IMG/VR virus record: IMGVR_UViG_3300033146_002141
Coordinates: 1-41,549 of that record
Reading direction: 5' to 3' (one strand)
Source of the DNA: a virus
Length of the DNA stretch: 41,549 bases
Shown here: in pieces, positions 6,627-41,340 of the stretch
Numbering within the stretch: position 1 is the first letter of the stretch
How the letters are laid out: each line of letters opens with the position of its first letter
Notes under the pieces: generated by a model
The model's input: the letters and a program-made list of their open reading frames with translations, nothing else
Database searches by the model: none
Told to the model about the DNA's origin: nothing
Translations under genes and position numbers: made by a program

Positions 6627-6630
6627 ATCA

Positions 6631-6744
6631 TTAACCTAATAATATTTTAGATGTAGATTTAGCACCTGATGTTTTTCTAATTTTTTTATTTTCATCTATT
6701 AAAATATTATCGGTCAATACTTTAACTTTCTTTTTCTTTTTCAT
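6631..6744 (-). CDS. Small lysine-rich peptide between two fibre genes
   Basis: A 37-residue open frame with an ATG preceded by GGAG at normal spacing, filling the gap between two paralogous fibre genes. The N-terminus is MKKKKKVKV and the peptide is strongly basic throughout. The stop lies four bases before the ATG of the next fibre gene, so translation is probably coupled. It could be an assembly or chaperone peptide, a nucleic-acid-binding peptide, or simply a translational link. No homologue was recognised. Confidence 0.65.
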   Translation of the reverse strand: MKKKKKVKVLTDNILIDENKKIRKTSGAKSTSKILLG

Positions 6745-6755
6745 TATTATATCTC

Positions 6756-7208
6756 CTATCTTGCATTATATGATATTGTTAATTTATCTCCAATTTCTAA
6801 TACTGATTCTAATTCACATTCATTCCAAGTTAAAGTTCCATATAATGGATCATATATAAAATCATCGTTTATATATTGACCCGGTGCATTTTTAATTCTT
6901 AATATAAGAGAATTCGGCTCGGCAAGTATTGATAATGTTACACATTTATTTGATATATCAGAAGCACTTAATACAAATCGTTCTACTCGATAGTCGGAAC
7001 CACTATTTCCACCTGTTACTCCATGAGTTTGTATCGCTAATAAAGTTTTACTAGGAGTCATATAATGATCATCATTATCACATAGTGTTATATCAGCAAC
7101 TGTTGCCTTATCAATATCTTTAGAGACCTGTCTGTCATTGGTTACATTCTCTAGATTTAATGAACTTTTATCTAAATATATATGTGTGGATATAGATGTA
7201 TTACCCAT
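6756..7208 (-). CDS. Tail fibre paralogue (short form)
   Basis: A 150-residue protein aligned end to end with the first 155 residues of the gene at 5961-6626. Both share DKATVADI...YMTPSKT and the closing beta module with W-x(3)-L-x(3)-LEIGDKLTISY, but the C-terminal repeats are absent here. Tandem paralogues of this kind usually arise by duplication and let a phage vary receptor binding. GGAG lies 9 bases before the ATG. It belongs to the same leftward operon, directly after a larger fibre gene. A structural subunit of the tail fibre or baseplate rim is the likely role. Confidence 0.75.
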   Translation of the reverse strand: MGNTSISTHIYLDKSSLNLENVTNDRQVSKDIDKATVADITLCDNDDHYMTPSKTLLAIQTHGVTGGNSGSDYRVERFVLSASDISNKCVTLSILAEPNSLILRIKNAPGQYINDDFIYDPLYGTLTWNECELESVLEIGDKLTISYNAR

Positions 7209-7211
7209 AGA

Positions 7212-8003
7212 TTAAGTCTCCGTTATAAGAATTCTTCCGTTAAATCTATTATCAGGAGATTCAGTAACTCTTATATGTATATCACCATTCGCTTTTACCA
7301 TAGTATCAACATCAACCCTAATAAAATCATAACCGCTTAATTCCTCTACTTGTATGTGAGGAAATAACCCACAACCAGATAATGATTCAGTTACTATTAA
7401 GGTATATATGCCTCCAGACGCAGTCCCCCAATCAACAGTATTATTGAATGCTTGTGCATATGATGATTTTGCATCTACACCTTCTATCGCAAATCCTGTT
7501 CTATTTAATATATATCCTACATCGTCTGATATTGCCCATATCATAGCTTTTCTAATATCACCAGTTTGATATATTATAGTATCAATTGATTTTATTTGTG
7601 GAGCATCTGGATCTAATGCATAGGTAGTACCACTTACAAAAGTACCAGATGGGAACTCAGTCATTCCTGAATAAGTAACTCGAAAAACATCACTATTAAT
7701 CACTTCAGTTACGATACCTAGGGATTCGGCATGCTCTTCTGTATCTCCTTGTGCTAATAACCAAGTATTGCCATCATTTCTCACAGGATCTAACACAGAG
7801 AATCCGTGTCCATTCATTGATATAACATCACTAGTTCCTCCGTTACTTCCAGCATTTATCCATCTAACTCCGTTGCTGAAATATACAGTTTCATCTGTCG
7901 GATCATATACTAATCGTCCGTCCATATCTAATGCATCAACAATATCAGTATTAATATGTTGAAGGAATAGTTTTCCTCTTAAGTTTATGCCATAATCTTT
8001 CAT
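7212..8003 (-). CDS. Tail fibre / structural protein with a fibre repeat domain
   Basis: A 263-residue, mainly beta protein. The N-terminus (LFLQHINTDIVDALDMDGR then VYDPTDETVYFSNG) is the common fibre start that ties the shaft to a panel-like domain. Residues about 65-150 contain a segment of the HGFSVLDPVRNDGNTWLLAQ type seen in many phage tail fibre and baseplate proteins. The C-terminal 90 residues are another beta domain. It is preceded by AAAGGA and followed after 3 bases by the short fibre paralogue. No enzymatic motif was seen. It probably forms part of the receptor-binding apparatus. Confidence 0.7.
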   Translation of the reverse strand: MKDYGINLRGKLFLQHINTDIVDALDMDGRLVYDPTDETVYFSNGVRWINAGSNGGTSDVISMNGHGFSVLDPVRNDGNTWLLAQGDTEEHAESLGIVTEVINSDVFRVTYSGMTEFPSGTFVSGTTYALDPDAPQIKSIDTIIYQTGDIRKAMIWAISDDVGYILNRTGFAIEGVDAKSSYAQAFNNTVDWGTASGGIYTLIVTESLSGCGLFPHIQVEELSGYDFIRVDVDTMVKANGDIHIRVTESPDNRFNGRILITET

Positions 8004-8015
8004 AATTTATGTCCT

Positions 8016-8255
8016 TTATTGTTTCTGAATTACTTCTATCGTATATCGTTTATTATATTTATAACTAATTGAATATATAATAGTTCTTATAGCTTGAATT
8101 ACACTGCCTTTTTTGCCTATTATTTTTCCTTGATCTTTTTTATTAACATGAATTTCTATAATAGAAGATATCGATCCTTCAGTTTCTATGACATCGATAT
8201 CATCTGGATATTCACATAAACAAATAACGATATTTTTTATCAATTCTTGTATCAT
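8016..8255 (-). CDS. KhpA-like KH-domain RNA-binding protein
   Basis: A 79-residue protein matching the whole length of the bacterial KhpA/YlqC family. The KH signature is G-K-I-I-G-K-K-G at about residues 43-50, with GxxG at 47-50. It is followed by the helix SVIQAIRTIIYS and a closing strand ending in TIEVI. The N-terminus (helix, then acidic PDDIDV) also fits. KhpA binds RNA, usually with KhpB, and influences small-RNA function and translation in its hosts. The gene lies inside the tail fibre operon with its own GAGGA site, far from any other RNA-metabolism gene in the window. It may be a phage-borne RNA chaperone acting on host or late phage mRNAs. The family assignment is strong and the role is inferred. 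Confidence 0.85.
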   Translation of the reverse strand: MIQELIKNIVICLCEYPDDIDVIETEGSISSIIEIHVNKKDQGKIIGKKGSVIQAIRTIIYSISYKYNKRYTIEVIQKQ

Positions 8256-8273
8256 AATAATATATTCCTCGTT

Positions 8274-9158
8274 TTAATGATATATTACCCATACTGTAGG
8301 AGTAGGGTCTTCTTCATCAAATGATATTATCATCTGATTTCGTGTAGGGAAATTTATAGACCCTGGTTTTATGACATTTCCGGATGAATCTTCTAATATT
8401 TGAACTATAGGATATCTATCCAAATCGTGATCTATAACTAATTGACCATTTACATAATGAACATTCCAATATAATCCTTCATATATAACAGGAAAATCAG
8501 TTCTTCTTTGATATCCGATACTTCCATCTATTGCACTAGATGTAATTACACTATTCCAATTAGAAGGATCTGATGGCTTATGTTCTGTAATAGGGTTTTG
8601 TAATTGAGCAATTCTTGCATCAATATCTGTATATGGTTCTGTAAAATTTGCCATAGGTCGAAAAGCATTAACATTTGTTGCTATATCATCTTGATACACA
8701 CCATTTACTTGTAATTTTAAAGCACTTTGATATATTAATTTAGCAAGAAATACATGATGTGCAGGATTGAAATCATCAATATGCTTCAAAACTCGAATTG
8801 TAGCAATTGATGGAGTTGTGCTCTTAGAATATTGATATGTCAATACTAAATATCCAACAGAAGGGAATGGTCCATCCATTTCTTTAGGATCAGAAGCATC
8901 TCGTATTATATAATTTTCTGGATCTGTAATATCAAATTCTTGATCTTGAGTAATGTCTATTAGCACATCATCTTTTATGCATATTCCTGATGTAATAGGA
9001 ACTCTAACTGTTGCTACATATTGTGCTTTTAAATATTCATCTCTTACTATTTTAGCAATTCCTCCTTTTCCTGTTATAATTCTAGTTAGTTTATTTACAT
9101 TATCAGAATCATACGATGAAAATGGATCAACAGCTCGTTCTTGTGGTTCAGGTATCAT
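8274..9158 (-). CDS. Tail fibre / baseplate structural protein
   Basis: A 294-residue protein with no signal peptide. The N-terminal two thirds are mixed beta with a helical stretch around residues 135-150 (AKLIYQSALKLQ). The last 60 residues (from WNVHYVNGQLVIDHDL to WVIYH) resemble a beta module common at the ends of phage tail proteins, with RYPIVQI.D.SGN.IKP spacing. AGGAG precedes the ATG. It follows the glycosyltransferase gene and precedes the KH-domain gene in a leftward operon. A fibre-attachment or fibre subunit role is likely. No family name can be given from sequence alone. Confidence 0.65.
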   Translation of the reverse strand: MIPEPQERAVDPFSSYDSDNVNKLTRIITGKGGIAKIVRDEYLKAQYVATVRVPITSGICIKDDVLIDITQDQEFDITDPENYIIRDASDPKEMDGPFPSVGYLVLTYQYSKSTTPSIATIRVLKHIDDFNPAHHVFLAKLIYQSALKLQVNGVYQDDIATNVNAFRPMANFTEPYTDIDARIAQLQNPITEHKPSDPSNWNSVITSSAIDGSIGYQRRTDFPVIYEGLYWNVHYVNGQLVIDHDLDRYPIVQILEDSSGNVIKPGSINFPTRNQMIISFDEEDPTPTVWVIYH

Positions 9159-10041: not shown

Positions 10042-11703
10042 ATGAATCCAAAACCATTATATGAAATTGATTTGAAGTATGATAAATACAATATAGGACA
10101 ATTTGTCAAGAAAATGCGTATATATAATGAAATGAATAAACCATATAGCAGTTTCATTATAATATTAGGAATGGATTATAATTATATTCAGGAAATTAAT
10201 ATGTTTACTCAACAAAAATTGATAATGACTATCCGTTCATATGATTTAGAGGGAAATAGTTTAGAAACTATAAAGATAGATCTTGCAATTTTATATAGTG
10301 ATTTAAAATTAATATCTCAAAAAATAGATATGGGATTATCTGATATTGATCATAGAGATATGCAAGATATAAAATTAGAATGTGCATCAATTCATGCTTT
10401 GAATAAAATGTCTTCTACAGTAAGCTATATAACAGATACTAAAACGACTGCTATTGATGCAATAAAAAATATGCTAGATATACATAAATATGATTCATCC
10501 GGAATATCTACTGCAGGATCTAATGAAGTAGAATTTAGACAATTATGTGTACCGCAAATGTCAATACAAAGTATGTTTGAATACATGAATAGCATATGCG
10601 GAGTATATGATGGACCTTATTATTATTATTGTGATTATAAAGGAAACATCAAATCTGGAAATCTAAAGTATATATATGATTCTGATACCAAAATACATAT
10701 ACATCAAGTGATGCCGGATAATGATAACAATTCAACTAACACAAACAAGATTGCAAAATTAATATTAGATTCTAATGATAATGATGCTCATTATATTACT
10801 ACATCGGAAATAAATGTGGTAAATCAATCAAATGACATAATATTACAAAATGGTTATTATAATATATATATGACACATCCATCAAATGATTTATTTGAAG
10901 TCTCTACGTATAAATTAGATGATGTATTGAAAGAGCATGGATTGACAGAAAGTAAATCATATGAATCACAATTTCATACTGATTTTAAATATAGAAGATC
11001 ATACAACATATCTAAAGCAGGAGATAATGTAGATAAAAAATATTTATCCACTAAAATAGTAGCTCCTTATTTAGCAATGACTCCTATTGAAGTAAAAATA
11101 GGAGGTTCATTGAGATTAAAATCATTATTAAATATATGCAACTCCATATCATTAAAAACATATGCTCCCTCATATAAAAAATATAAAGGAAATTATTTAT
11201 TAGCATCATCTATTATAGATATTGATTTTACGACGAATGCATCAGCATCTGCTAAACTAATAATGCTAAGAAGTTTTACCGGAAATTCAGAACTTATTAA
11301 AAAGACTAAACCGATAAAAGCAGAAACTAAACCATTGGATATAAAACAAAAAAATGTAGTACCAAAGTTACCTATTGTAACTCCTAATATCGAAAAGGAA
11401 CCAAGTGATACAAAGCAAACAGTAGTAAATAATAAACTAGAACTAGATCGGGAATTATCAATTGATTATACGGAATATCTAATGAATGCATCATTAGGAA
11501 AAGGCGATTTCTATAGAGATAATGTTCAAACCAGTTTAGGAGTTGTAGGTATGGGGGATATATCATATCTTAGAGGTCATACTTATTCTAGCATAGATGA
11601 AGGAATATTTAGTGATGATACGTATACATATGATACTTTTGATGAATGGTTAGATAAGAATCCACTTCAAAAACGTAAATATCAAGAATATGCGAACAAA
11701 TAA
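10042..11703 (+). CDS. Putative baseplate hub protein
   Basis: A 553-residue virion protein candidate. The middle portion (about residues 135-215) has IDAIKNMLDI, then VPQMSIQSMFEYMNSICGVYDGPYYYYCDYKG. This is the pattern seen in contractile-tail hub proteins (T4 gp27 and late-control-D-like), where a loop with an aromatic run precedes a basic strand. Beta-rich segments follow up to about 430, then a low-complexity K/P/T linker (about 430-465) and a D/Y-rich C-terminal tail. No lysozyme motif is present. The ribosome site is AGGAAA. It is the first gene of the rightward operon leading to terminase and tape measure. The hub call is moderate, and a tail adaptor is the main alternative. Confidence 0.5.
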   Translation: MNPKPLYEIDLKYDKYNIGQFVKKMRIYNEMNKPYSSFIIILGMDYNYIQEINMFTQQKLIMTIRSYDLEGNSLETIKIDLAILYSDLKLISQKIDMGLSDIDHRDMQDIKLECASIHALNKMSSTVSYITDTKTTAIDAIKNMLDIHKYDSSGISTAGSNEVEFRQLCVPQMSIQSMFEYMNSICGVYDGPYYYYCDYKGNIKSGNLKYIYDSDTKIHIHQVMPDNDNNSTNTNKIAKLILDSNDNDAHYITTSEINVVNQSNDIILQNGYYNIYMTHPSNDLFEVSTYKLDDVLKEHGLTESKSYESQFHTDFKYRRSYNISKAGDNVDKKYLSTKIVAPYLAMTPIEVKIGGSLRLKSLLNICNSISLKTYAPSYKKYKGNYLLASSIIDIDFTTNASASAKLIMLRSFTGNSELIKKTKPIKAETKPLDIKQKNVVPKLPIVTPNIEKEPSDTKQTVVNNKLELDRELSIDYTEYLMNASLGKGDFYRDNVQTSLGVVGMGDISYLRGHTYSSIDEGIFSDDTYTYDTFDEWLDKNPLQKRKYQEYANK

Positions 11704-11820: not shown

Positions 11821-13584
11821 ATGACGCCATTAGATAAAGAAAGGTTGATTGAATATAGAAAATGTAAACAGGATGCTATATATTTCATAACTAAATATGT
11901 AAAGATCGAATTGCCTGGCGGATCTATACCGATGCCAATGTATGAGGTTCAAAAAGATTATTTGACTAAATTAATAACAAACCATCATGTAGTATCTTTA
12001 AAATCAAGACAAACTGGAATATCAACAACCACTCAAGCATATATAACATGGGTTCATACTTTTTTTAAAGGAGTTGTTGTAGGTGTAGTTAGTAAAGATG
12101 GTGAAGAAGCTACTGATTTTTGTAGAAAAACGATGTCTATGATAGAATCAATTCCTAAATGGATGAGACCGACATACAAAAAACAAACAGAGCAAACATA
12201 TATATTAGATAATGGATGCAAATTTTATGCAAGCACAATAAATCCAAAAAATCCTGGTAAGCTATTTCGTGGTAAAGCAATAACTATTGCGGTTATGGAT
12301 GAAGCCGCGCATACTGATTATATAGAACAAGCATTTGTAGGATTTGGTCCGGCGTTAGTTAAATCTCAAACTATAGCAAAACAAAGAAATATTCCATATG
12401 GAACTATCGTCATAAGCACACCTAATAAAACAACTGGAATTGGAGCCTGGTATTATGATACCTGGAAAGAAGCCCAAACATCAAAATCTATATATGTTCC
12501 AATTACTATATATTGGAAAGATATTCCAGAATTTGCAGATGACCCAGATTGGTATGAAACACAACGAAGATTATTGAAATATAATGATTTGATAATAAGA
12601 CAGGAATTAGAATTAGAATTTATTGCATCAGAAGGTGCATTTTTCGAACCTGAAACAATTAAAAAATTAAATAAATCTCATAGGGAACCTATTAAATTAA
12701 TTAGATGTGAAAATAATTATATTAAAATATGGGAATTACCAAAAAGAACTTCATTCTATATGATAGGCATTGATACAGCAACTGCATATGGATCAGATTT
12801 ATCTGCATTGATTGTGGTAGATTGGGATACTATGAATATAGTCGCAGAATTCCATTCAAAATTAAGAGTTGATTCATATATAAAAGTTATAGAATATGTT
12901 GAAAAAATGTATAAAAACAATCTGATGATACCTGAAAATAACTCAGTAGGTAATCAGGTAATGGAACACTTTACAAAAGAATTAGGATGGACTGCTAAAT
13001 ATAATATATATTTAGAAAAAGAAGAATATGGAGAAAAAAGAAAATCAGATGGATATAAGGATAAGAAATACGGATTGACTAATACAGGAGTATCTAGACC
13101 ATTGATATTAGATTCTTTGTATACATTTGTATCAGAAGATCCAACTAGAATAAAATCTCAAGCATTATCATTAGAATTGATTGGATTAGAAGAAAAATCC
13201 AATAATAGAGTAGAAGCATCAAGAGGTAAAAAAGATGATATTGCATTAGCATATTCATTTTGTACATATGTCAGACAGTATAAACCGTTATCAAAAGTAA
13301 AATCCCATCAATCAGAATATGCAGAATCTATGGGTAATGATATAATAAATATGAATGATGATACGATGGATAGTCCTTACTTCTCCCATATTAATAATTC
13401 AGATTTAAATAACGATCAAAGAGATAATATGAATAAGATAATAGAAGAAAGAAATAAACTATTAAAAGATATGGCATTCGATCCGCATATAAGTACGAAT
13501 ATGCAGAATATACATTCTGATGCTACTGAAGATGGGGATTTTGTATTCATGCATATCTTTTATAACGAACAAATAAAAAAGTAA
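11821..13584 (+). CDS. Terminase large subunit (DNA packaging motor)
   Basis: A 587-residue gp17-type terminase. The ATPase domain has a Walker A variant SRQTGIST (residues 62-69), Walker B IAVMDEA (157-162, catalytic E161) and a coupling motif ISTPN (199-202). The RNase H-like nuclease domain begins at MIGIDTA with D318, has a second acidic site near E372 and ends with KKDDIALAY (D472/D473). All key residues are present, so the protein should be active. It pumps DNA into the prohead through the portal and cuts it at headful or at specific sites. The small terminase was not recognised in the window. The last 70 residues are a charged extension beyond the usual end. The ribosome site is weak (GTAGG). 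Confidence 0.96.
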   Translation: MTPLDKERLIEYRKCKQDAIYFITKYVKIELPGGSIPMPMYEVQKDYLTKLITNHHVVSLKSRQTGISTTTQAYITWVHTFFKGVVVGVVSKDGEEATDFCRKTMSMIESIPKWMRPTYKKQTEQTYILDNGCKFYASTINPKNPGKLFRGKAITIAVMDEAAHTDYIEQAFVGFGPALVKSQTIAKQRNIPYGTIVISTPNKTTGIGAWYYDTWKEAQTSKSIYVPITIYWKDIPEFADDPDWYETQRRLLKYNDLIIRQELELEFIASEGAFFEPETIKKLNKSHREPIKLIRCENNYIKIWELPKRTSFYMIGIDTATAYGSDLSALIVVDWDTMNIVAEFHSKLRVDSYIKVIEYVEKMYKNNLMIPENNSVGNQVMEHFTKELGWTAKYNIYLEKEEYGEKRKSDGYKDKKYGLTNTGVSRPLILDSLYTFVSEDPTRIKSQALSLELIGLEEKSNNRVEASRGKKDDIALAYSFCTYVRQYKPLSKVKSHQSEYAESMGNDIINMNDDTMDSPYFSHINNSDLNNDQRDNMNKIIEERNKLLKDMAFDPHISTNMQNIHSDATEDGDFVFMHIFYNEQIKK

Positions 13585-27197: not shown

Positions 27198-28904
27198 TTA
27201 TTTAATAAATAAATTCAAATGCACTCTTTCAATTATTCCAGTAGGAACTAATACAACGTCACAATGCATAATTTTTTGTTTTTTCTCATATTCAGTGGCT
27301 CCTACATTAACAGAATATCCTTCTAATGCTCTCGCATCTTGAACTGGTTGTAAAAACTCACTAATTTGAGAAGCTACTTCTTCATGTGTAGATGAATCAT
27401 TAAATTCAAATACATAATATTTCACAAATTGTTCTAAAGCTCGTTTGATATATAATACTGATCTTACAGTACTTAAATTCGATAATTTAGAAGGTCTTTT
27501 CTGAGAAGTTAAATTACCCCAAATTGTATATCCTATATTGAATTTAACAATAGGATTGATTTGAGCTAGATATAATTGATCTTTTTGACCTTGTGTAGGA
27601 TTAAATCTCAATTCTTTAATTGAAGGAATAGTTCCTCTATTAAACCCTGCTGATGGATACCATATTTCATATAAATCATCATTTTTAGGAATGATTGAAG
27701 ACATATGATATACTGGGGATACCCAAATATTCTTTCCTGTATGAATATCATATATTTTATTAAATGGTTCATACATGGCAGCATAGAAAGTATTTAAGAT
27801 AGGAGCTTTATTTTGTCGGGTGTCAATACTTGTTACTACATCCGGATTATCTCCATTATCCATTATAGCAACACAATCTCTTCTTAAATCTTCACATAAA
27901 TATCTAATAGCATCTTTGACATCTCTAGAATAACCTGCATCATATACAAGAGAGAAATATATTTCATCTAAATTTTGTACCTTTTCATCAGTAAATCCAT
28001 AATATGCTTCTACTAATAAATTATCAGCAATAGAAGTATCAATACGTCTTCTGCCAGTAATTGAATCAATAGTAATCAATTCCCCTTCAGATCCTCCAGA
28101 TAAATGAATAGCAGGGGATTCTATAGTAGTTCCGCTGTTAATAGGATATTCCTGAAATGAACTAGCATTGCTAAATACGATAGGAACATCTGTCTTTTTC
28201 CATTCATTTAAATTATCTTCATTAATATGACATTTTATACATTTAGAATATCTATTAATCACTTCATCTATATATAAAGATTCTCCTGCTTCATCTACTG
28301 CATATTCATCAAATGAAACTTCAAAAGATTCTTTTATGTCATCAGAATCTCCTTCTGAAGATAATTCATATATTTTGATAACATATACTCCATCTGATTT
28401 TAATACCGGATTAGTATGCTGTTCCATTGTAATACCGAAATCATTATAACTATCCCCACGACCTTCTGGATAGAACATTATTAATGGATATGTAGTACCA
28501 TTTGTCATCAACTCATTATCTTTTTCTAAATCATTGTCTAATGAATTTATAGATCCTGCAGGTTTTGAAGTAACTGAAATATCAGCAGTACTATCCATTG
28601 TTAGATTTACAAATAGATTAGAAAATGATGCATTATCAGGAAGCACTCTTAATGCATACAAAGATCCAGACATTGCTAAATGATTCCATGCAATATAAGG
28701 TCCTTGCCCATATTTTTTACCATAATCATTAATATTAGGTTTTCCGTATTTTCCTTTAAATTCTTCATGACCACTAATTAATGTTAATTTATTATCAGGA
28801 CCTCGCTTTGAGAAGAATGATACAAATCCTGTTGTACCAGGAACTTCTTGTAAGTAGTAACTCAAATCTATTATTTTTGAATATACACCAGGTGATATGC
28901 CCAT
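27198..28904 (-). CDS. Contractile tail sheath protein
   Basis: A 568-residue sheath subunit. The N-terminus GISPGVYSKIIDLSYYLQEV with GTTGFVSFFSKRGP is the standard sheath start for strand exchange between neighbours. The C-terminal part has TIWGNLTSQKRPSKLSNLSTVRSVLYI in two pieces (about residues 457-472 and 473-485) and ends in IERVHLNLFIK, as in the family. It surrounds the tube and contracts during injection. AAGAGG precedes its ATG. This is the first gene of the canonical sheath, tube, chaperone order and is probably highly expressed. Confidence 0.94.
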   Translation of the reverse strand: MGISPGVYSKIIDLSYYLQEVPGTTGFVSFFSKRGPDNKLTLISGHEEFKGKYGKPNINDYGKKYGQGPYIAWNHLAMSGSLYALRVLPDNASFSNLFVNLTMDSTADISVTSKPAGSINSLDNDLEKDNELMTNGTTYPLIMFYPEGRGDSYNDFGITMEQHTNPVLKSDGVYVIKIYELSSEGDSDDIKESFEVSFDEYAVDEAGESLYIDEVINRYSKCIKCHINEDNLNEWKKTDVPIVFSNASSFQEYPINSGTTIESPAIHLSGGSEGELITIDSITGRRRIDTSIADNLLVEAYYGFTDEKVQNLDEIYFSLVYDAGYSRDVKDAIRYLCEDLRRDCVAIMDNGDNPDVVTSIDTRQNKAPILNTFYAAMYEPFNKIYDIHTGKNIWVSPVYHMSSIIPKNDDLYEIWYPSAGFNRGTIPSIKELRFNPTQGQKDQLYLAQINPIVKFNIGYTIWGNLTSQKRPSKLSNLSTVRSVLYIKRALEQFVKYYVFEFNDSSTHEEVASQISEFLQPVQDARALEGYSVNVGATEYEKKQKIMHCDVVLVPTGIIERVHLNLFIK

Positions 28905-29776: not shown

Positions 29777-32434
29777 TTAATATAACCAATTGATTTGATC
29801 CTGAATGATTCCTCCTTCAGTAACTTCTATTTCAATATTATCATCTACGATTGAATTATTATCATATATTCTTCCTGTATCATAGGTTAATTCATTTGTA
29901 TTTCTAATCCCTTCTTTGTATAATTCAGATATTTGAGCTCCTATATTAAATCCAATTTTATCCTGTTTAACGATAGAATCTTGAGTGGGATCTTTTATTC
30001 TATATAATAATTCATATGATAGAAGCCTAGCTCTCTTTGGTTTGAATTCATTTATTAATTTTCTTATATTAGTTTCTAGTTTATTTCCTAAGAATATCTG
30101 GGCAATATTAATAGTAGTTTCTTGTATATTTGTATTAATAAATATGTCAATATAATCAACAAGTTCTGAGCATAAATCTATTAAATTTTCATAATTGTCA
30201 TTAGCTATATTATCAATAGTTTCTTTTACAGAAGAATTTAATCCGATTTCATATTTATACATTCCGTCATTATCAGATTCCCATTGTTCATCTATGGATC
30301 CGGTCGTATTAATGCATTTATAAAATCTAGGCATATTAACAATTTGACCATCAGATGGTCTTGAGAATGTTGTATGGGTTTCATCGAATTGGACTAATAT
30401 TATATCCCCAATATTATTATTAATAATAGGTAAATTTGATTTATGTAATACATGATTTGGAAAAGTGCCATTCAACAATCTTGCTATATCTAATCTATTT
30501 CTGCAAAAGTTTTTATCAAATGTTCGCGACCATTCTTTAACCAAATCTTTTCTATTTTGTAATATCTTATGATATATCCATTCCTCAAATGTTCCATCAT
30601 CCGTAATTTTATTCCATTGATCATTTAAGGAACCGGTTTTTGATATTGATTGGTATAATTGAACTTTATGAGAAGCAGTAGAATCCCTTATTACAACCGC
30701 ATAATCTCCGATTTTATGTTCACTATGCATTAAAGGTAATTCATCCTCTGTTTCTACTACTATATATAAATCTTGAGCATTATTATAATTTTTAATGAAT
30801 GGTTCAAAATATTCTTTTTGTATATCTACATAATCTAATTTATAATTAGGATCATAATTTTTATTAGATGTATTATTAAAATGTCGTATTCTTGCCATCA
30901 ATGAATCTTTGTATGATCTTAAATATGGTTCTGCATATGCATCAAAATATCCAGGGATGCTTGTATCAAAACTAACATCATTATTATCTTGTGATATATC
31001 AATAGCCCCTAAATATATTTCTACACTTGGTGGATATTTTTGATAGCTTTTTATATCAAATAAATCTCCAGATTCATTTCTGGCATGGGTAGATAACCAT
31101 CTCAATGATTTTTCATATTTAAACGGATAAGTTCCTATAAAGGGATTAGGATTATGTGTTTCTATATCAATTCTATATAATCCTAATATATAGGATTTCA
31201 CAGATTGATATTTTACTTCATCATTGTATCTATCATATGTGTATAGCATGGCAGCATATAATGTAATGAACTCAATAGATTGATCAAATGATTCTACATT
31301 AATCATTCCATAATCAGTATTTATCGTATTTTGTAGATAATCAATTAATTGATCATTAACATATTTATTAAAGAAGGAAAATGTAACATCAGCAGTAATA
31401 AATTCTACGTAAGCAGAAATTGAAAAATACGGAAGGATTGAAGGCAATGACAATCCTTCTAATTTATCATCAATTTCCTTTATATGTTCTTCCGTATAAT
31501 ACCAATTGGGTCCAGCTGTATTTTTGAATTCTGAGAAACTCATGAATCTATCTTCTATATCATTATCCCCATTAGTATGCTTTGTAGCAATGGGTTTACC
31601 TGTTAAGTATATATTTCCCGTTCCATGAAGACTTCTATCCCTATATAACCACCATTCATATATGACAATATCATCAATATCCATAAATGTTAATACTTCT
31701 ATTATAGAATCAGGAGTTCCTTTTTTCTTGTATATTTCAACTAGAGCTAATAATAATGCAGCTTTGGCAGTTTTCTTATCTATCAATTCGACATTCTCGA
31801 ATCCAAAACTTTTATGAGCAACTTCTAATAACTCTTCAGATAATAAAAAGGCATCAGATGTTTTCTCTTGTAGTTTAATGAATGTTCTGAATGAGGCATA
31901 CCAATCTATTATAAATTTTCTAAGTCTATTATAATCATCCGTATTAAATGATATTTGATCTATTATATTTTTGAATAATTGTTTAGTTTCATTTCTCATA
32001 TTAATAGCAATTGCTATTATATTAGGATCTATTCCGTATTTACTCACGAAAGATCGTTTTCTTTCTTCTACTATTTCAGAAGTCACAGAAGTATCTGGTC
32101 TAGAAACTTGTAATTCTATTATATATGTATTAATTTCATTTATAATATTATCTTTATCTGTTAAAAATTCTACTCTTTTATATAATTCATTTAAAGTATA
32201 TGCTATTTGATTTTTTATATTATTTATGCTACTAGATCCCATTTCTAATATAAATATATAAGAATTAGCAATTTCAATTTTTCTATCAATTTTATCAGCA
32301 ATTTGAATATTATATAACATCTGATTTAATTTTTCTAATTCCATTTGCTCAGCATTCAGTGCTGATATATCACTTTGATCAGGATTATCTTTTAGATAAT
32401 TAAATATTGAGAAAAAATCATCATGGCTATACAT
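29777..32434 (-). CDS. Large baseplate wedge-type protein (gp7-like candidate)
   Basis: An 885-residue protein with a helical N-terminal part. A region around 235-265 holds YKKKGTPDSIIEVLTFMDID then IVIYEWWLYR. This pattern occurs in large baseplate proteins of giant and T4-like phages. The middle is beta-rich with two copies of a VQLYQSISKTGSLNDQW-like segment (near 600-620 and 700-715). The C-terminus is charged. Size and order (before sheath, with the other wedge genes downstream) suggest a wedge backbone such as gp7. No direct proof is visible. GGAGG precedes the ATG and the gene starts 3 bases after the stop of its upstream neighbour, so they are translationally coupled. Confidence 0.65.
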   Translation of the reverse strand: MYSHDDFFSIFNYLKDNPDQSDISALNAEQMELEKLNQMLYNIQIADKIDRKIEIANSYIFILEMGSSSINNIKNQIAYTLNELYKRVEFLTDKDNIINEINTYIIELQVSRPDTSVTSEIVEERKRSFVSKYGIDPNIIAIAINMRNETKQLFKNIIDQISFNTDDYNRLRKFIIDWYASFRTFIKLQEKTSDAFLLSEELLEVAHKSFGFENVELIDKKTAKAALLLALVEIYKKKGTPDSIIEVLTFMDIDDIVIYEWWLYRDRSLHGTGNIYLTGKPIATKHTNGDNDIEDRFMSFSEFKNTAGPNWYYTEEHIKEIDDKLEGLSLPSILPYFSISAYVEFITADVTFSFFNKYVNDQLIDYLQNTINTDYGMINVESFDQSIEFITLYAAMLYTYDRYNDEVKYQSVKSYILGLYRIDIETHNPNPFIGTYPFKYEKSLRWLSTHARNESGDLFDIKSYQKYPPSVEIYLGAIDISQDNNDVSFDTSIPGYFDAYAEPYLRSYKDSLMARIRHFNNTSNKNYDPNYKLDYVDIQKEYFEPFIKNYNNAQDLYIVVETEDELPLMHSEHKIGDYAVVIRDSTASHKVQLYQSISKTGSLNDQWNKITDDGTFEEWIYHKILQNRKDLVKEWSRTFDKNFCRNRLDIARLLNGTFPNHVLHKSNLPIINNNIGDIILVQFDETHTTFSRPSDGQIVNMPRFYKCINTTGSIDEQWESDNDGMYKYEIGLNSSVKETIDNIANDNYENLIDLCSELVDYIDIFINTNIQETTINIAQIFLGNKLETNIRKLINEFKPKRARLLSYELLYRIKDPTQDSIVKQDKIGFNIGAQISELYKEGIRNTNELTYDTGRIYDNNSIVDDNIEIEVTEGGIIQDQINWLY

Positions 32435-32437
32435 ATT

Positions 32438-33412
32438 CTAAACCTCCATTAGTTCATCTAATTCATCAATTGGTAAATATGCCCACATTATATATAACTT
32501 ATCCCCAATACTTAAATCTGACTTTAATGCTTTATTATTCCATGTTATTTGAGATATATGAGCAGTGCTATCTACAAAATAATCATATTTAGACTTATCT
32601 ATTAATTTATTCTTATGAAATAAATTGATTCGAGTAATATCAATAGGATGAGTATTAAAATCCATCTCTAAATAATTATTAAAAATATTTTCTTCATTTA
32701 ATATAAATATTTGAGATTTACTAGAAGGACTTTCAAAAAATGTTTCATTTAGATAAGAATAGCATAACTGTTTCTTTAAATACATATAATTAATAAACCA
32801 CTGTTCAAATACTTGATCTATAAGTCTTATGTTATCTGTTGATAAATCAGGTAATTCATATATGTCTAACAATTCACATTTTAATATACTTTTTATAATT
32901 TTAGCCAAATTTGAGGAAATTGGAATATTATCGATATCAGATATATCAGGAATTATTCCATTTTTATATTGCTTTAATATGTCAATAAAATAATATTCTA
33001 AATATGTTAATTTATATATATTTTCAGATAATATATCATTATGTTCAGATATACTTTTTGAATTTGGTATGATATCATTTATATTACAAGTAGTATCAAT
33101 ACCAATATTACAAGTAGCATCCGGATTTATCATATAAAAATTTAGATTAGATGGGTTGTATAAATTCAGTCTTTTTGTTAATCTTTTATCTAATCTTTTA
33201 TATATATCAGGTTCTGTTAAATTATAAAATATAATAAATGATTCCTCATCATATGTCCAACTATATAATACGTCTAATTCTGATTGATTGTGTATAATAT
33301 TATATTGATTATCTATATCAGAAATTGTATTTATATACTGTTTATTGATATTATATGACTGTGATGAGATTTCATTAATCCAGGCATTTATATCAAGAAC
33401 AAATTTTTTCAT
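32438..33412 (-). CDS. Baseplate-associated protein with fibre-like C-terminal module
   Basis: A 324-residue protein, the first gene of the leftward tail operon. The N-terminal 230 residues are helical and unrecognised. The last 80 residues match the closing beta module of the fibre paralogues at 5961 and 6756: a strand, YDYFVD, then ITWNNKALKSDLSIGDKLYIMWA, with the shared W, L and GDKL positions. This module probably serves as an interaction or capping domain. The ribosome site is weak (AGGAT, 12-base spacing). It ends in TAG, which shows that TAG is a genuine stop in this genome. Confidence 0.65.
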   Translation of the reverse strand: MKKFVLDINAWINEISSQSYNINKQYINTISDIDNQYNIIHNQSELDVLYSWTYDEESFIIFYNLTEPDIYKRLDKRLTKRLNLYNPSNLNFYMINPDATCNIGIDTTCNINDIIPNSKSISEHNDILSENIYKLTYLEYYFIDILKQYKNGIIPDISDIDNIPISSNLAKIIKSILKCELLDIYELPDLSTDNIRLIDQVFEQWFINYMYLKKQLCYSYLNETFFESPSSKSQIFILNEENIFNNYLEMDFNTHPIDITRINLFHKNKLIDKSKYDYFVDSTAHISQITWNNKALKSDLSIGDKLYIMWAYLPIDELDELMEV

Positions 33413-34518: not shown

Positions 34519-35247
34519 ATGTCAAACGATTTAAATCTAAGTGAAGAGGTAATAAGCAAATTGAGTATAAACAGCAAAAAAGCAATTAAAGGGAATAACC
34601 CTTTGTCAAAATATATGATAAAAAAAATAAAAAAGGAAGTGGATAATATTATAGTAGATGTTAAGCCAAATGAAGTTTTGGCGATAACAAAGAAAGTCGA
34701 AAAAAAATATGTCTTCTCGAAAGAGGAGGCAATAGAGGCGGCGAAAGCCGGAATAGGTAAGGAATTCTGCAAGAGAGGGATTCATGTCAAACAGAATCCT
34801 TCCATGTGGAATGGATATATAGAAAGAGAATGCAGAGTAGCTTTAAACATTTCAATTCCCTTTAGGGAAATTGTCATGAACAGTATAAATCCATATGATC
34901 ACGAAGAAGTGATTGTACTGGAAAAAAAGGCTGGATCTGATCGGATAGAATTCCTAAACAAAGGACAAACTATCGGATGGGGACTAAGAGGATTCAATCC
35001 ATTTGACGGAGAAAAAAATAAAAAAATAAAAGAATTTTTAGATAAAGTAAAAGGGGCAAAATCTGAAAATTTTTGTCAGCCAGATTTTTTTAAGTTTTAT
35101 TCGGAAAAGAAACATGTTGCCATTTATGGCGAAAGCATGAATCTGCTATTTCCGATATCAATGTCAGACCTGACCACTGCGGTCAGAAAACTTGTATATA
35201 GTATACAAGGGGTGGATCCGGGAAATAGATTTATTACATTGACGTAA
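34519..35247 (+). CDS. Hypothetical protein of unusual base composition
   Basis: A 242-residue soluble protein with no recognised family. The first 75 residues are lysine-rich and helical. The middle (about 75-160) contains GIGKEFCKRGIHVKQNPSMW and IGWGLRGFNPFDG. The C-terminus holds ISMSDLTTAVRKLVYSIQG. The DNA is visibly richer in G+C than its neighbours (for example around 34726-34800, with GCG, GCC and CCG codons), suggesting transfer from another source or high-expression codon choice. AAAGGAG is the ribosome site. It is a single-gene unit bounded by terminators on both sides, which is typical of accessory early or moron-type genes. Confidence 0.75.
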   Translation: MSNDLNLSEEVISKLSINSKKAIKGNNPLSKYMIKKIKKEVDNIIVDVKPNEVLAITKKVEKKYVFSKEEAIEAAKAGIGKEFCKRGIHVKQNPSMWNGYIERECRVALNISIPFREIVMNSINPYDHEEVIVLEKKAGSDRIEFLNKGQTIGWGLRGFNPFDGEKNKKIKEFLDKVKGAKSENFCQPDFFKFYSEKKHVAIYGESMNLLFPISMSDLTTAVRKLVYSIQGVDPGNRFITLT

Positions 35248-35487: not shown

Positions 35488-35613
35488 ATGAAAGATATGA
35501 ATATATATGATTTATTGATATTCTCTGCTATCATTATAGGAGTTTTATATTTGATAGTATGGAATATTGAATTATATATAAAAAGAAATATGTCTAAATG
35601 CAGAAAACATTGA
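35488..35613 (+). CDS. 41-residue single-pass membrane protein
   Basis: This frame has an ATG preceded by AAGGAGA at good spacing. Residues 8-27 form one hydrophobic helix (LLIFSAIIIGVLYLIVW), and the C-terminus is basic (YIKRNMSKCRKH), so an N-out, C-in topology is likely. It is the first gene of the long operon that contains the VWA and MoxR genes. It overlaps the next gene by 16 bases. It may anchor a complex to the membrane or act as a small inhibitor. The function is unknown. Confidence 0.7.
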   Translation: MKDMNIYDLLIFSAIIIGVLYLIVWNIELYIKRNMSKCRKH

Positions 35614-35798
35614 TATATGGGAAACTTCATAAATTAAGAGCGTCTATAATCTATAAGTTAGTAAATGACTATGATCACGGATTACTTATTTACAATTATG
35701 AAGCGGAGCTAAAAGATATATATGATATAGATAACATTTTAAACGACATAATAAATAATTCAAACAAGAGGAGAATATTCCGATGCCAGAAAATATAG
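35598..35798 (+). CDS. Hypothetical small protein
   Basis: A 66-residue frame overlapping the genes on both sides by 16 bases. The N-terminus is basic (MQKTLIYGKLHKLRASIIYK) and the middle acidic. No motif was recognised. There is no clear ribosome site, so it would rely on coupling to the membrane peptide gene. Codon use resembles its neighbours and it fills an otherwise empty gap, hence it is kept at moderate confidence. Confidence 0.55.
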   Translation: MQKTLIYGKLHKLRASIIYKLVNDYDHGLLIYNYEAELKDIYDIDNILNDIINNSNKRRIFRCQKI

Positions 35799-36115
35799 AA
35801 ATAGAAATTAACTCAGCGGTAAATGAGTTAATCAATGATTTTGATAATAACAATAATTTAGATAGTGAATTATATTCAATATGGAAACATATATATGATT
35901 TAAAAGAAATAAAATTAGATAATAAAATAAATGAATTTATAACGCAGGTTAGAAACAATGCAGATATATTATATGATATAATAGATAATATTTTAATGGA
36001 TATGCATTATGCATTGAAAATAGATATATTAGAAAATATGATGATATATGCATGTGGTGCTATGTATACAGCATGTGAAAAATTAATCAGAAATATTAAA
36101 GGAGAAATGTTATGA
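35783..36115 (+). CDS. Hypothetical acidic protein
   Basis: A 110-residue, largely helical acidic protein (N/D/E-rich start, IWKHIYDL and ILYDIIDNILMDMHY helices). AGAGGAGA lies 8 bases before the ATG. The end overlaps the next start in ATGTTATGA, showing tight coupling. No family was recognised. It belongs to the operon that leads into the metallopeptidase-VWA gene. Confidence 0.7.
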   Translation: MPENIEIEINSAVNELINDFDNNNNLDSELYSIWKHIYDLKEIKLDNKINEFITQVRNNADILYDIIDNILMDMHYALKIDILENMMIYACGAMYTACEKLIRNIKGEML

Positions 36116-36468
36116 AAGAGAAAAATGGTGTCGTTGTTATTATAAATGAGCAACACAAAATATTAGAGGATCAAAAAAATTTAATTGATACATATGATAT
36201 CTTTAAAGGATGGGAATTTTTAAAAGTTCCATCTGAAGGATGGACTATTGATCAAATGGAAGATTTGATATTCGGATCATTGATAAATAAGGTAGCTGTA
36301 ATATTTATATCACCGATACCTGCGATGATAAAAATGATGACGCAAAATAGAGCAGAAGATAAAAACTTTCCAATCATTAGAGTTTTTCATAATGATAATA
36401 GAGAGAAAAAAGAGATCTCAGGAAAGGTTATTATGACAGTTGCTAAAACTGGCTGGATATTGGTATGA
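36112..36468 (+). CDS. Hypothetical protein, Rossmann-like
   Basis: A 118-residue alpha/beta protein. A hydrophobic first strand (GVVVIINEQ), a second (KVAVIFISPIPAMIKMM) and a third (FPIIRVFHND) suggest a small Rossmann-like fold, but no cofactor motif is visible. It overlaps the start of the VWA gene in ATGA form, so the two are probably made together. This favours a functional link with the metallopeptidase-VWA protein, for example as a substrate adaptor. The link is inferred. Confidence 0.7.
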   Translation: MKEKNGVVVIINEQHKILEDQKNLIDTYDIFKGWEFLKVPSEGWTIDQMEDLIFGSLINKVAVIFISPIPAMIKMMTQNRAEDKNFPIIRVFHNDNREKKEISGKVIMTVAKTGWILV

Positions 36469-37988
36469 TAGATACGGATAAAATAACTAGATGGATTGAG
36501 CGTATTCATGCTAATCTGTTTAGAGACAGTATGTATATGCCATTTGGCAAAGCCCTTCTTGGGTTTGATTTTGAGGTTGGTGAGTTTCAGAATATACCAG
36601 CTCCTGCATGCATTATAATAGAAAAACAAAAGATAATGATTAATACATCATTGATTGATGAAAATCTGACTTTTGAGCATTTATGTTTTATTATATTGCA
36701 TGAAATATGTCATGCTATGTTTAACATTGATAAAAGACGTGGATCACGGGATCCTCAGTTATATAATATAGCAGAAGATTATGTTATCAATTTATTACTG
36801 GAAGAGATGGCAGAAATTTGCAAAGATAAAAGCACATGTAATGTTGTTACTGACATAGATGGTGCTAAGCAAAAATATTTATTTGATGATGATTTTGTTA
36901 ATATGACATCAGAAGAAGTTTATGATATCCTTATTAAAGAAGGAAATTATAAAAAAGAGACAAAAGAAATGTCTATTTCTGATTTCATGAAACAATTTAA
37001 TATGGATAAAGATGTTGATGGAAATGGAAATGTTGAATCATATGATGAAGATAGCAATGAAGAATCTAAACCACAAGATGAGGATGGAGATAAAGATTCT
37101 GAAAAAGATGATAGCAATAGTAAATGTGAAGAGGAAGATTCTAAAGATAATAAAAATAAAAATGAAGATAACCCTTCAGAACCTATGGTTAAAGTGACTA
37201 AAACATCATTTGAAAGAAATAATGTAAAGATCAATCATACATCTGTAGAATTTCCACAATCAACATCAGAACCATCAGATAATGAATCTGGGGATGATGA
37301 TCAAAGAAGATCTAAAGCTGAAAAGCAAATGGATAAAGCATTAGCATCAGCAAGACATACTATGAAAGATATTGGTCATGAAAGTGCTAGATTAAAAAAA
37401 TTAATTGATTATCTTTTAGCAGTAGAAATCCCATGGGATAAAATTCTAGAACAATGCTTAGAAGAATATATTTGTGATCAAAATGAGGTAACCTGGTCTA
37501 AACAAAGATTGACATCTTGTTTGATGGATTATATATTGCCCGGATACGAGGATGACCGAGTATACAACACAGTCATTTTTGTCAACGATGAATCAGGATC
37601 TATATCAGAAGATGATAGTGCTAGATTTCACGATGTGATATTTCAATCAAAACAATGGTTTAAAGAACTGATTGTTATAAAACACGATGATAAATTGGTA
37701 TGGGAACATGAGTACCAATCAGATGAAATCGGTAAAGATGAAGAAAATGAAATTATGACAAGACGTGCATTCGGCGGTACAAGTCATAAGGAAGTCTTTA
37801 CAAGAATATCAGAATTATCAGAAGATAAAGAAGTAATTTCTTGTGTGATTTTATGCACGGATTTATATAGTGATATAGAAAAATATCAACATCTAATTCC
37901 TATGGATATTCCTATTATATATATAGGTGGTCCTGATATGATGAAGGATATTGATAAAATAAAGGGAATGATAATACGGACATCGTAA
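36465..37988 (+). CDS. Metallopeptidase-like and VWA-domain protein (MoxR partner)
   Basis: A 507-residue protein. Residues about 1-160 form a zincin-like domain with IILHEICHAM (H79, E80, H83) and NIAEDYVIN (D105 as possible third ligand), as in the DUF2201-type putative metallopeptidases. Residues about 170-290 are a highly acidic low-complexity linker. Residues about 295-507 contain a VWA domain with an intact metal-binding site: D375-E-S377-G-S379, T439 and D466. DUF2201-plus-VWA proteins occur next to MoxR ATPases, and the MoxR gene follows here after 60 bases. Such pairs act as metal-insertion or remodelling chaperones. The substrate in this phage is unknown. Start coupling (ATGA) links it to the gene before. 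Confidence 0.9.
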   Translation: MIDTDKITRWIERIHANLFRDSMYMPFGKALLGFDFEVGEFQNIPAPACIIIEKQKIMINTSLIDENLTFEHLCFIILHEICHAMFNIDKRRGSRDPQLYNIAEDYVINLLLEEMAEICKDKSTCNVVTDIDGAKQKYLFDDDFVNMTSEEVYDILIKEGNYKKETKEMSISDFMKQFNMDKDVDGNGNVESYDEDSNEESKPQDEDGDKDSEKDDSNSKCEEEDSKDNKNKNEDNPSEPMVKVTKTSFERNNVKINHTSVEFPQSTSEPSDNESGDDDQRRSKAEKQMDKALASARHTMKDIGHESARLKKLIDYLLAVEIPWDKILEQCLEEYICDQNEVTWSKQRLTSCLMDYILPGYEDDRVYNTVIFVNDESGSISEDDSARFHDVIFQSKQWFKELIVIKHDDKLVWEHEYQSDEIGKDEENEIMTRRAFGGTSHKEVFTRISELSEDKEVISCVILCTDLYSDIEKYQHLIPMDIPIIYIGGPDMMKDIDKIKGMIIRTS

Positions 37989-38006
37989 AAATAATTTTGA
38001 TATAAT
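37977..38006 (+). promoter_or_regulatory. Possible internal promoter for the MoxR gene
   Basis: An extended -10 (TGATATAAT, hexamer 38001-38006) lies 18 bases after a weak -35 (CGGACA, 37977-37982). It sits just after the VWA gene stop and 43 bases before the MoxR start. It may allow extra ATPase synthesis. The weak -35 keeps confidence low. Confidence 0.35.
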
Positions 38007-38048
38007 TAAAACAGAATCTAATGATTCAATTAAAAAAGGAGTTCGTTT

Positions 38049-39248
38049 ATGAAAAACGACATGAATAAATTAAATTTATCGGAGCTATTAGCTCCAATTA
38101 CTGTATCTATAATCAACCAAATGGAACTATGCAAAAAAGGTATGTTTAGTTCTATTCCAAGAATAGTAGGCCCTCCAGGTATGGGAAAAAGTGACTTCTG
38201 TAAACAGTTAGTAAGTCATTTAGAAGGCGTTACAAAATCCCAATGGGGATTAGTTGTGCACTATTTGGGCACATTTCCTCTAGAAAAGATGACAGGTCTT
38301 CCTTTAAATATAAAGGAATCAGATGATGAAATGAAGTCAGAAGGTCCTAAGTTTGCGAAATGGAGCTGCCCGGACATCTTCGATTTTAAAACATTAGAGG
38401 TTCCTGTAAAGGATTATAAAAAGCCTTATAACATATTGATGCTATTAGATGATATTCACTTGGTGAAGTCAAATATGGCACCTTATTTGTATCAGCTGTA
38501 TTCGTATAGAACTATACATGGTTATAAAATGCCGGACAATGTAGTTCTTATATCAGCCGGAAATGGTAAGGATGATAATGCTGGATTTCAAAAGACTCAA
38601 AACCCGATCATAAATAGGGAAGTTTATTTTCAGGTCAAATGCGATGTTGATCAATGGACTAGGGATTATGCGATTCAAGCGAATGTCAAACATGAGATAA
38701 TCTCATACTTGAATCACGATCCAAGTATGATGCATACCAAATGTGTTAATTCAGAACCATTTGCGACCCCGAGGTCATGGGTAAGCTTATCTGATCAGAT
38801 GAAAATAATGGATAATATTAATATAGATAAAAATAATATTGATATATTATATAACATATCAGCAGGTACTGTTGGCACTACAGCTGCCAGCAATTTCATT
38901 GAGTATATAGAATTAATATATAAATGGAATGCCGGAAAAATATTAAAAGGAGATGAAAATATTAATTACAATGATCTAGATAAGATTGACGCATACTCGC
39001 TGTTATCAGCATGCGTAGGAGAATTCATAAAGATGTTCAGAAATCCAGAATTATTGGAAGATGAAGATCTATATGTAGACAATATGAAGTCTATAATAGT
39101 AGAATGCTCCAAAAAGCATAAACCGATTATCCCAGTCGTGCTGGGACTTATTGTCAAATCAGAAGGATCTATATTAAAAAGCACGAAAGTGTCTAGAAAA
39201 ATATTAGATGCAAATATGACAGATATAGTTAATCATATGGTTAATTAA
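38049..39248 (+). CDS. MoxR-like AAA+ ATPase
   Basis: A 399-residue AAA+ protein. Walker A is GPPGMGKS (41-48), Walker B is ILMLLDDIH (129-137), sensor 1 is in ISAGNG (168-173), and a likely arginine finger is R190 in IINREV. The C-terminal lid domain spans about 240-399. MoxR proteins form hexameric rings and work with VWA-domain partners to remodel or activate substrates. The VWA gene lies just upstream. AAGGAG precedes the ATG. The base composition is a little higher in G+C than the small genes around it. All catalytic motifs are intact, so activity is expected. Confidence 0.92.
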   Translation: MKNDMNKLNLSELLAPITVSIINQMELCKKGMFSSIPRIVGPPGMGKSDFCKQLVSHLEGVTKSQWGLVVHYLGTFPLEKMTGLPLNIKESDDEMKSEGPKFAKWSCPDIFDFKTLEVPVKDYKKPYNILMLLDDIHLVKSNMAPYLYQLYSYRTIHGYKMPDNVVLISAGNGKDDNAGFQKTQNPIINREVYFQVKCDVDQWTRDYAIQANVKHEIISYLNHDPSMMHTKCVNSEPFATPRSWVSLSDQMKIMDNINIDKNNIDILYNISAGTVGTTAASNFIEYIELIYKWNAGKILKGDENINYNDLDKIDAYSLLSACVGEFIKMFRNPELLEDEDLYVDNMKSIIVECSKKHKPIIPVVLGLIVKSEGSILKSTKVSRKILDANMTDIVNHMVN

Positions 39249-39254
39249 TTAAAA

Positions 39255-39863
39255 ATGTATATTGCATCAGTTAATATATCTTCCTCTCGCAGATGTGTAA
39301 TACGTTGCGGGTTTAAGATTATTAAATTAAAAAAGAAAAGTTCTATTTATATTATTAATAATAGATCTTTTCGATATAAAGGAAAAAGGTTTGAGTTAGA
39401 AAAAGATCAGACTAAATTCCATATCGAATTTGATGATAATAATATAGTTCATGATACAATGAATATTATGACTATTGATGATTTTAAGTTATATCCTGAT
39501 GTTATATCTAGTGATTATAGAAATTACTATTTTGATATTAATATGATTCCTTGTCCAATCTTATGGATATATCCAAACAATAGAATGTATGCTATTCAAA
39601 AGAAAAGAATATGTTTTAAATTAAAAGATCATAATTTATCTCAGATAACACATGATGATTTTGAATTAATGACTAATGTAGATTCATTGGATATTAATAT
39701 GGTGTGGATGAAATTTAGAAAAATTGATTTAACTACTCAATTTAATATTGTGAATGGTTTTAATAAATCTATTCATAAATCTGATATGAATCATCGATTA
39801 TGGGAGAGATTTAGTAGACATTATAACATCAAAGATACGTGTATCAGCAATATGGTATCATAG
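39255..39863 (+). CDS. Hypothetical protein ending at an in-frame TAG (upstream part)
   Basis: A 202-residue, mainly beta protein with basic N-terminus (IIKLKKKSSIYII) and a mixed C-terminal half. No family was recognised. The ATG has no ribosome site, but it lies 6 bases after the MoxR stop, so re-initiation is possible. The frame ends in TAG (39861-39863), and the same frame stays open for another 81 codons with normal codon use. The gene is thus either interrupted by a nonsense mutation or read through. Confidence 0.65.
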   Translation: MYIASVNISSSRRCVIRCGFKIIKLKKKSSIYIINNRSFRYKGKRFELEKDQTKFHIEFDDNNIVHDTMNIMTIDDFKLYPDVISSDYRNYYFDINMIPCPILWIYPNNRMYAIQKKRICFKLKDHNLSQITHDDFELMTNVDSLDINMVWMKFRKIDLTTQFNIVNGFNKSIHKSDMNHRLWERFSRHYNIKDTCISNMVS

Positions 39864-40109
39864 TATTTAGACGATCATATATTAAAAAATAAATATCAGT
39901 TTGATATAGTAGATATTACAAGATACGATCACGATATAATTGGACATATCGATATAAATGATGATATATCAATACTTAATAGTTTAGATGTAAATAAATA
40001 TTATTATTTAAGATATGTAGTAGGGGATATGTATGAATACATTTCGTTCAAACCAAATGAATTAATGGAATGTTTGCAAAAAAGATTATTAGATAAATTA
40101 ACACAATAA
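39864..40109 (+). pseudogene. In-frame extension after TAG (81 codons)
   Basis: Downstream of the TAG the frame continues from YLDDHILKNKYQ to ECLQKRLLDKLTQ and ends in TAA (40107-40109). The segment has ordinary composition for this genome, and it has no start codon with a ribosome site. Together with the upstream part it would give a 284-residue protein, counting the TAG position. TAG terminates other genes here (for example at 32438), so global recoding is unlikely. A recent nonsense mutation, a base-calling error or amber readthrough remain. Confidence 0.6.
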
Positions 40110-41291: not shown

Positions 41292-41340
41292 GATTATCCT
41301 CTGCCATTAATTTGGTAGAGGAATATCTTTTTTTTTTTTT
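41292..41340 (+). terminator. Strong intrinsic terminator ending the MoxR-VWA operon
   Basis: TCCTCTGCCA (41297-41306) pairs with TGGTAGAGGA (41313-41322), with one G-U pair, and GAT/ATC outside extend the stem. A run of 13 T follows (41328-41340). This is the clearest Rho-independent terminator in the window. It faces a convergent leftward gene. Confidence 0.92.

Follow-up and report, generated by a model that had tools for sequence, protein, structure and literature searches.

A phage MoxR/VWA pair with a zincin-like domain, set beside contractile-tail genes in one branch of its family

What would a phage do with a MoxR-type AAA+ ATPase and, encoded 60 bp away on the same strand, a protein that joins a metallopeptidase-like domain to a VWA domain? 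The question is raised by IMG/VR virus record IMGVR_UViG_3300033146_002141, a single linear stretch of 41,549 bases, hereafter called the window. An earlier note on this DNA, made from its letters, had read the two genes as a phage-borne remodelling module with additional small partners and a possible part in conflict. Both open reading frames (ORFs) are present where it placed them (Table 1), and the module itself is backed by sequence, conserved pairing and predicted fold. The pair is already known, and its parts are those of an ordinary member of a known phage family; the novelty lies in a branch signature, shared by the window and three further viruses, that sets the pair beside a contractile-tail module. 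I hold with about equal confidence and doubt that it is a phage chaperone-cochaperone pair with a zincin domain whose target is a virion protein, of tail or baseplate, or an assembly intermediate.

The two proteins and their pairing

The VWA protein comprises an N-terminal zincin-like metallopeptidase domain, an acidic linker (residues 183-232, approximately) and a C-terminal VWA domain with a metal ion-dependent adhesion site (MIDAS). It matches PF13203 (DUF2201_N) with an E value of 3.7e-17 and a score above the gathering cut-off, PF09967 (DUF2201, VWA-like) at 5e-5, slightly under the gathering score, and the PHROG family phrog_1314 at 1.7e-45. In profile comparison, the N-terminal half matched the minigluzincin MJ1213, a protein of solved structure, with an E value of 7.6e-4, and projannalysin weakly (0.43). 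The AlphaFold2 (AF2) model has a predicted local distance difference test score (pLDDT) of 74.5, the linker being disordered and modelled with low confidence; its C-terminal half was recognised by Foldseek as a VWA fold, with NorD of NorQD and the midasin MIDAS domain among the matches. The zincin site HEICH (residues 79-83, with H79, E80 and H83) and the full MIDAS (D375-x-S377-x-S379, T439, D466), both pointed out in the earlier note, are present and conserved: HExxH and DxSxS are kept in 79 of 79 aligned homologues, and the equivalents of T439 and D466 in 77 of them. The pattern used to fetch the comparison loci did not select for HExxH or the MIDAS. The equivalent of D105 is likewise invariant across the 79 homologues, an invariance that is partly selection, because D105 sits in the fetching pattern.

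In PHROG and RefSeq this VWA family is called 'HNH endonuclease', a label that sits on phrog_1314 and on many phage records, for example LIT1 gp35 and phage G gp576. No HNH Pfam domain was found in the window VWA protein. The label was rejected, profile and model giving zincin and VWA domains instead, and it looks like a propagated misannotation. An 83-aa ORF at 41033 weakly matched a short helix of the VWA protein (E 0.001; 0.08-0.5), a resemblance judged to be chance or a short motif.

By homology, predicted fold and best matches, the partner ATPase is assigned to MoxR. It matches the ATPase family phrog_1297 (E = 2.2e-47), its AF2 model has a mean pLDDT of 91.7, and in Foldseek that model matches NorQ best, several NorQ-NorD complexes and CbbQ also ranking high. 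Walker A (GPPGMGKS), sensor 1 (N172), the conserved R190 and R242, an arginine finger and sensor 2 are all found. The earlier note was mistaken, however, in stating that all AAA+ motifs are kept, for the Walker B glutamate is replaced by D135, the motif being LLLDDIH instead of LDE. Among 72 aligned MoxR proteins, 66 have DE at this position and six have DD. The carriers of DDxH are the window and the comparison loci L008, L009 (identical to L168 and L175), L169, L010 and L012 (L-numbers, here and below, being labels of fetched comparison loci such as L002, L008, L009 and L168). The five DDxH proteins included in a tree form a single group (support 100/99) with a long stem, so that its placing in the tree calls for caution. 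Since the change from glutamate to aspartate is kept across proteins down to 22% identity, the alignment suggests that it is functional rather than a mark of decay. The VWA partners of the DDxH proteins have a motif of their own, GGTSHK, following the MIDAS threonine.

How regularly do the two genes travel together? Homologues of MoxR were found by tblastn in 600 annotated phage records and homologues of the VWA protein in 154; phages carrying the pair include N4-like phages (LIT1), Bacillus phage G, PA5oct, XaC1, GAP32 and T4-like jumbo phages. Among viral contigs the window proteins gave no match as single queries, alignments being needed to find relatives, and a scan driven by the VWA protein then confirmed at least 471 of them. 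In almost every fetched phage locus the MoxR and VWA genes share a strand; they occur together in 66 of the 79 loci of a second, MoxR-driven set, and are near each other in 78 of 80 bacterial loci, most of them actinobacterial. The pair ranks among the more widespread of those phage gene pairs whose job is unproven, hidden behind the wrong 'HNH endonuclease' label. One locus of the fetched set, L002 (MT835968.1, positions 6066-9056, from a human-faecal contig), encodes MoxR with a 609-aa protein that seemingly has two metallopeptidase-like repeats; judged by eye, the remaining genes seem bacterial (transketolase-like, glycerol-kinase-like), which makes the phage label of this contig doubtful.

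The VWA gene precedes the MoxR gene in the window, L008, L009, L168 and L169, and also in L012, there with intervening genes; every other fetched phage locus in which both genes were found has the usual order, MoxR before VWA. Gene order marks the branch and does not define the family. As the VWA and sheath proteins of L009 and L168 are 100% identical, these two loci are counted as the same virus, and the window, L008, L009/L168 and L169 as four distinct viruses. What unites these four is the inverted order, the Walker B sequence DDxH, the GGTSHK motif and a fixed place beside the contractile-tail module.

Position beside tail genes and the possible target

In all four viruses, the pair begins just beyond the sheath/baseplate module, on the opposite strand. 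The window sheath shares 52-53% identity with the sheaths of L009/L168 and L169, viruses that carry the pair in the same position, and homologues of the window's baseplate-type protein are encoded in L008, L009, L168 and L169. In L010 the pair stands among genes one of which matches a baseplate family.

How might such a pair act? A machine resembling NorQD has the best support: MoxR would form an ATP-driven hexamer on whose ring one VWA protein would dock, the MIDAS metal holding an acidic residue of the target; ATP turnover in the ring would remodel the target, and the zincin domain might nick it. The likeliest target would be a virion protein, of tail or baseplate, or an assembly intermediate. 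Further observations consistent with such a target come from other phages. In the Escherichia coli phage 121Q, the MoxR gene comes directly after the row of structural genes that follow the sheath. The phage phAPEC6 belongs to the species of 121Q, and its virions contained gp265c, an 'ATPase' of 49.5 kDa detected by six peptides covering 19% (PMC7247149); the gene of gp265c sits between the sheath and thymidylate synthase genes, and by synteny with 121Q the protein is probably MoxR. The record of the PA5oct ATPase bears a note of detection by electrospray ionization tandem mass spectrometry (ESI-MS/MS), of the same kind as the notes on that phage's structural proteins.

Several observations weigh against a virion target. 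The VWA subunit is unmarked in the virion lists of both phAPEC6 and PA5oct, and carry-over in the phAPEC6 preparation is possible, since thymidylate synthase was also detected by virion mass spectrometry (PMC7247149). Transcription of the pair runs away from the tail genes. The sheath relatives L170, L171, L172, L174 and L176 are without the pair beside their tail genes, in the limited stretch examined for each. The Walker B change may also lower ATP turnover or hydrolysis. Finally, the pair is near replication genes in N4-like phages and near nucleotide-metabolism genes in many others, and in N4 itself gp24 and gp25 are transcribed in the middle phase instead of the late one (PMC4193335), a timing at odds with a purely late role in assembly for that phage.

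The N4 timing also speaks for another explanation, namely that what the pair remodels or cleaves, in mid-infection, is a replication or transcription complex of the phage and not virion parts. In many phages the neighbours of the pair are a DNA polymerase, a helicase, a thymidylate synthase or an exonuclease, and in L012 a primase lies a few genes away. Yet both the window branch and 121Q have tail or structural genes adjoining the pair, MoxR has been seen in virion preparations, and no replication gene recurs beside the pair in the window branch; I therefore regard a replication or transcription target as rather unlikely. More specific than the favoured reading of a virion target is the proposal that, in the window branch, the pair now serves tail assembly alone: its ATP chemistry would be altered (DDxH together with GGTSHK), and its zincin domain would mature a tail or baseplate protein under ATP gating. 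This scheme seems improbable. If an assembly role is shown, phage morphogenesis would gain an ATP-driven chaperone that has a peptidase domain; if only the new branch is true, the addition is modest. With the pair fixed next to tail genes, the branch offers a definite starting point in the search for the substrate.

The genes around the pair

The features of the locus are collected in Table 1. Judged from its genes, the window phage can be classed as a large myovirus, since a terminase, a contractile tail sheath and baseplate-type proteins are encoded; the sheath is nearest to those of jumbo phages such as phiR1-37, AR9/PBS1 and S6, at about 30% identity. G+C content is 28%, no tRNA genes were found in the window, and the record is probably a fragment.

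Table 1. Features of the window bearing on the MoxR/VWA pair and its surroundings
Feature	Position	Strand	Evidence or remark
Terminase	11821-13584		
Tail sheath, in the tail module beside the pair	27198..28904	-	phrog_19666 1.9e-83, phrog_23 1.2e-36
Baseplate-type protein, tail module next to the pair	29777..32434	-	PF09684 Tail_P2_I 1.2e-4, above cut-off
324-aa gene, end of tail module, divergent from the cassette	32438..33412	-	homologue in L008, L009
Four small overlapping ORFs (41, 66, 110, 118 aa)	35488..36468	+	ORF list, overlaps
VWA protein, 507 aa	36465..37988	+	Pfam, PHROG, motif conservation, AF2/Foldseek, profile match
MoxR-type AAA+ ATPase, 399 aa	38049..39248	+	PHROG, alignments, AF2, Foldseek
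202-aa gene, function not recognised, 6 bp after MoxR	39255..39863	+	weak homologue at same place in L008
Terminator-like hairpin closing the gene run	41297..41322	+	10-bp stem

Are the four small genes upstream of the VWA gene partners of the pair, as the earlier note proposed? The features it had described do hold. The ORFs overlap one another and, last in the row, the VWA gene (35598/35613, 35783/35798, 36112/36115 and 36465/36468; that is, by 16, 16, 4 and 4 bases), so arranged that they are apparently coupled to it in translation, and the 41-aa ORF at 35488 contains, on direct reading, a hydrophobic stretch. The role assigned to them did not hold. Searches of Pfam, PHROG, NCBIfam and PADLOC gave no family match for any of the four, and in 178 loci (2.5 Mb), the majority of which carry the pair, tblastn found no credible homologue near another pair (best E 0.03), an outcome that had been set beforehand as telling against such partners. 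L009, L168 and L169 share the sheath module and the VWA-MoxR order, and none of them has an overlapping run of small genes before the VWA gene; in L008 that position is occupied by a weak homologue of the 34519 gene described below and by a glycine-rich protein of secreted type. The idea of extra partners is thus not supported, because no homologue of the small genes stands next to any other pair, and as a general feature of the family it was rejected. A narrower version, in which the four coupled genes are lineage-specific adaptor subunits that give this particular copy its target, draws on the short overlaps with the VWA gene, which suggest translational coupling, and on a good Shine-Dalgarno sequence, recognised by eye, in three of the four genes. 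Dense overlap is normal in phage operons, however, and the homologues are missing next to all other pairs searched, the nearest ones included. I consider such adaptors very unlikely.

The coupled hydrophobic ORF also bears on a third explanation, that the pair acts on host proteins, inactivating, cleaving or activating a host complex, possibly at the membrane, in takeover or counter-defence. The fusion of a peptidase to a VWA domain that binds targets would suit such a role, and membrane enzymes are the targets of cellular MoxR-VWA pairs (NorQD; PMC9976466). But the pair is stable, old and common to very different phages and bacteria, unlike fast-changing conflict effectors, and the small genes are not conserved. 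PADLOC gave no match to a known defence or counter-defence system, an identity that was accordingly rejected for the module, and the link to conflict systems drawn in the earlier note found no evidence. No positive support was found for a conflict or host-attack role, and a host target is, in my judgement, unlikely.

Downstream of MoxR, the product of the 202-aa gene is 23% identical over 202 aa to its L008 homologue (pairwise BLASTP, E 7e-9). The gene ends at an in-frame TAG (39861-39863) after which the same frame is open for 81 more codons, to 40109, and the L008 homologue is an unbroken 346 aa. The TAG within 39255-40109 may be a nonsense change, a readthrough site or a sequence error, and the gene correspondingly broken or longer. 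Readthrough was considered because this gene and the 324-aa gene that closes the tail module both end in TAG followed by in-frame open sequence. For the latter, the open frame past the TAG is the start of the next gene, not readthrough; a genome-wide alternative code with TAG readthrough was rejected, since table 11 leaves all large genes open and TAA is the usual stop. The terminator expected after the gene run was found as a terminator-like hairpin, one of eight terminator-like sites in the region, against a mean of 1.7 in shuffles.

In L009 (11547-14947, plus strand) and L169 (394-1389, minus strand) 11 and three small ORFs of 91-136 aa, respectively, stand in tandem just downstream of MoxR. 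They are otherwise divergent, and nearly all end in -[LM]FK[IL]E(H/Y)DIA; this C-terminal peptide seems to be the conserved thing, because its codons show synonymous changes. The family is not present in the window. Were the pair a dedicated tail-assembly machine, these tandem proteins (-LFKIEHDIA) would be candidates for its tagged substrates.

Between the tail module and the cassette, the window encodes a phage lysozyme (33835-34320; PF00959, 4.4e-27) and, between the lysozyme gene and the cassette, a 242-aa protein whose function was not recognised (34519-35247). L008 encodes a weak homologue of the latter in the corresponding position (6156-6911; identity about 20%, E 4e-5). In L009 an M15-type peptidase (10789-11526) directly follows MoxR, in place of the window's lysozyme. 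In L008 a 456-aa ORF (4159-5529, minus strand) between tail genes and cassette looks by eye like TnpB/IS605 OrfB and has no Pfam match.

Comparison with known systems

The MoxR-vWA ternary conflict systems (Kaur et al. 2020, PMC7159879) share with the window the core of MoxR and vWA. No third component of VMAP, iSTAND or FtsH type was recognised among the window's neighbours by Pfam, NCBIfam and PADLOC, searches that did not include dedicated VMAP models and have limited sensitivity for short divergent genes. Among cellular chaperones, NorQ-NorD, CbbQ-CbbO and RavA-ViaA give the best structural matches to the window MoxR and likewise have a VWA protein with a MIDAS. In NorQD, the MIDAS binds the target while the hexamer supplies force, and MIDAS mutants retain NorQ binding whereas target activation is abolished (PMC9976466). 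The differences are these: MoxR identity to the cellular chaperones is about 10%, NorQ keeps the Walker B glutamate (E109; PMC9976466) that is replaced in the window, and no HExxH peptidase domain is described in NorD (PMC9976466), unlike the window VWA protein.

In phages, a two-subunit MoxR-type chaperonin was named as early as 2007 in Bacillus phage 0305phi8-36 (orf66/orf63; PMC2147016). As described, it combines, like the window, a phage MoxR with a linked partner. The gp24/gp25 pair of N4-like phages (Schitoviridae), for example LIT1 gp33/gp35, is homologous to that of the window, with ATPase E values down to 2e-15 (Erwinia phiEaP8); it differs in having MoxR before VWA and in lying near replication genes, and in LIT1 one small gene stands between the two. 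The pair itself was described from group 2.2 jumbo phages by Iyer et al. (2021, PMC7824862), as MoxR-vWA chaperones of which one includes a fused metallopeptidase; drawing on the analogy of Acidianus two-tailed virus, they proposed that it serves virion assembly. The window has the same two proteins, of the same families (phrog_1297 and phrog_1314), and the same domain order in the VWA subunit. It is set apart from the group 2.2 pair, to which identity is about 20-25%, by the VWA gene coming first, by the Walker B sequence LDDxH and the GGTSHK motif, and by a pair that, in a different phage lineage, adjoins the sheath/baseplate module.

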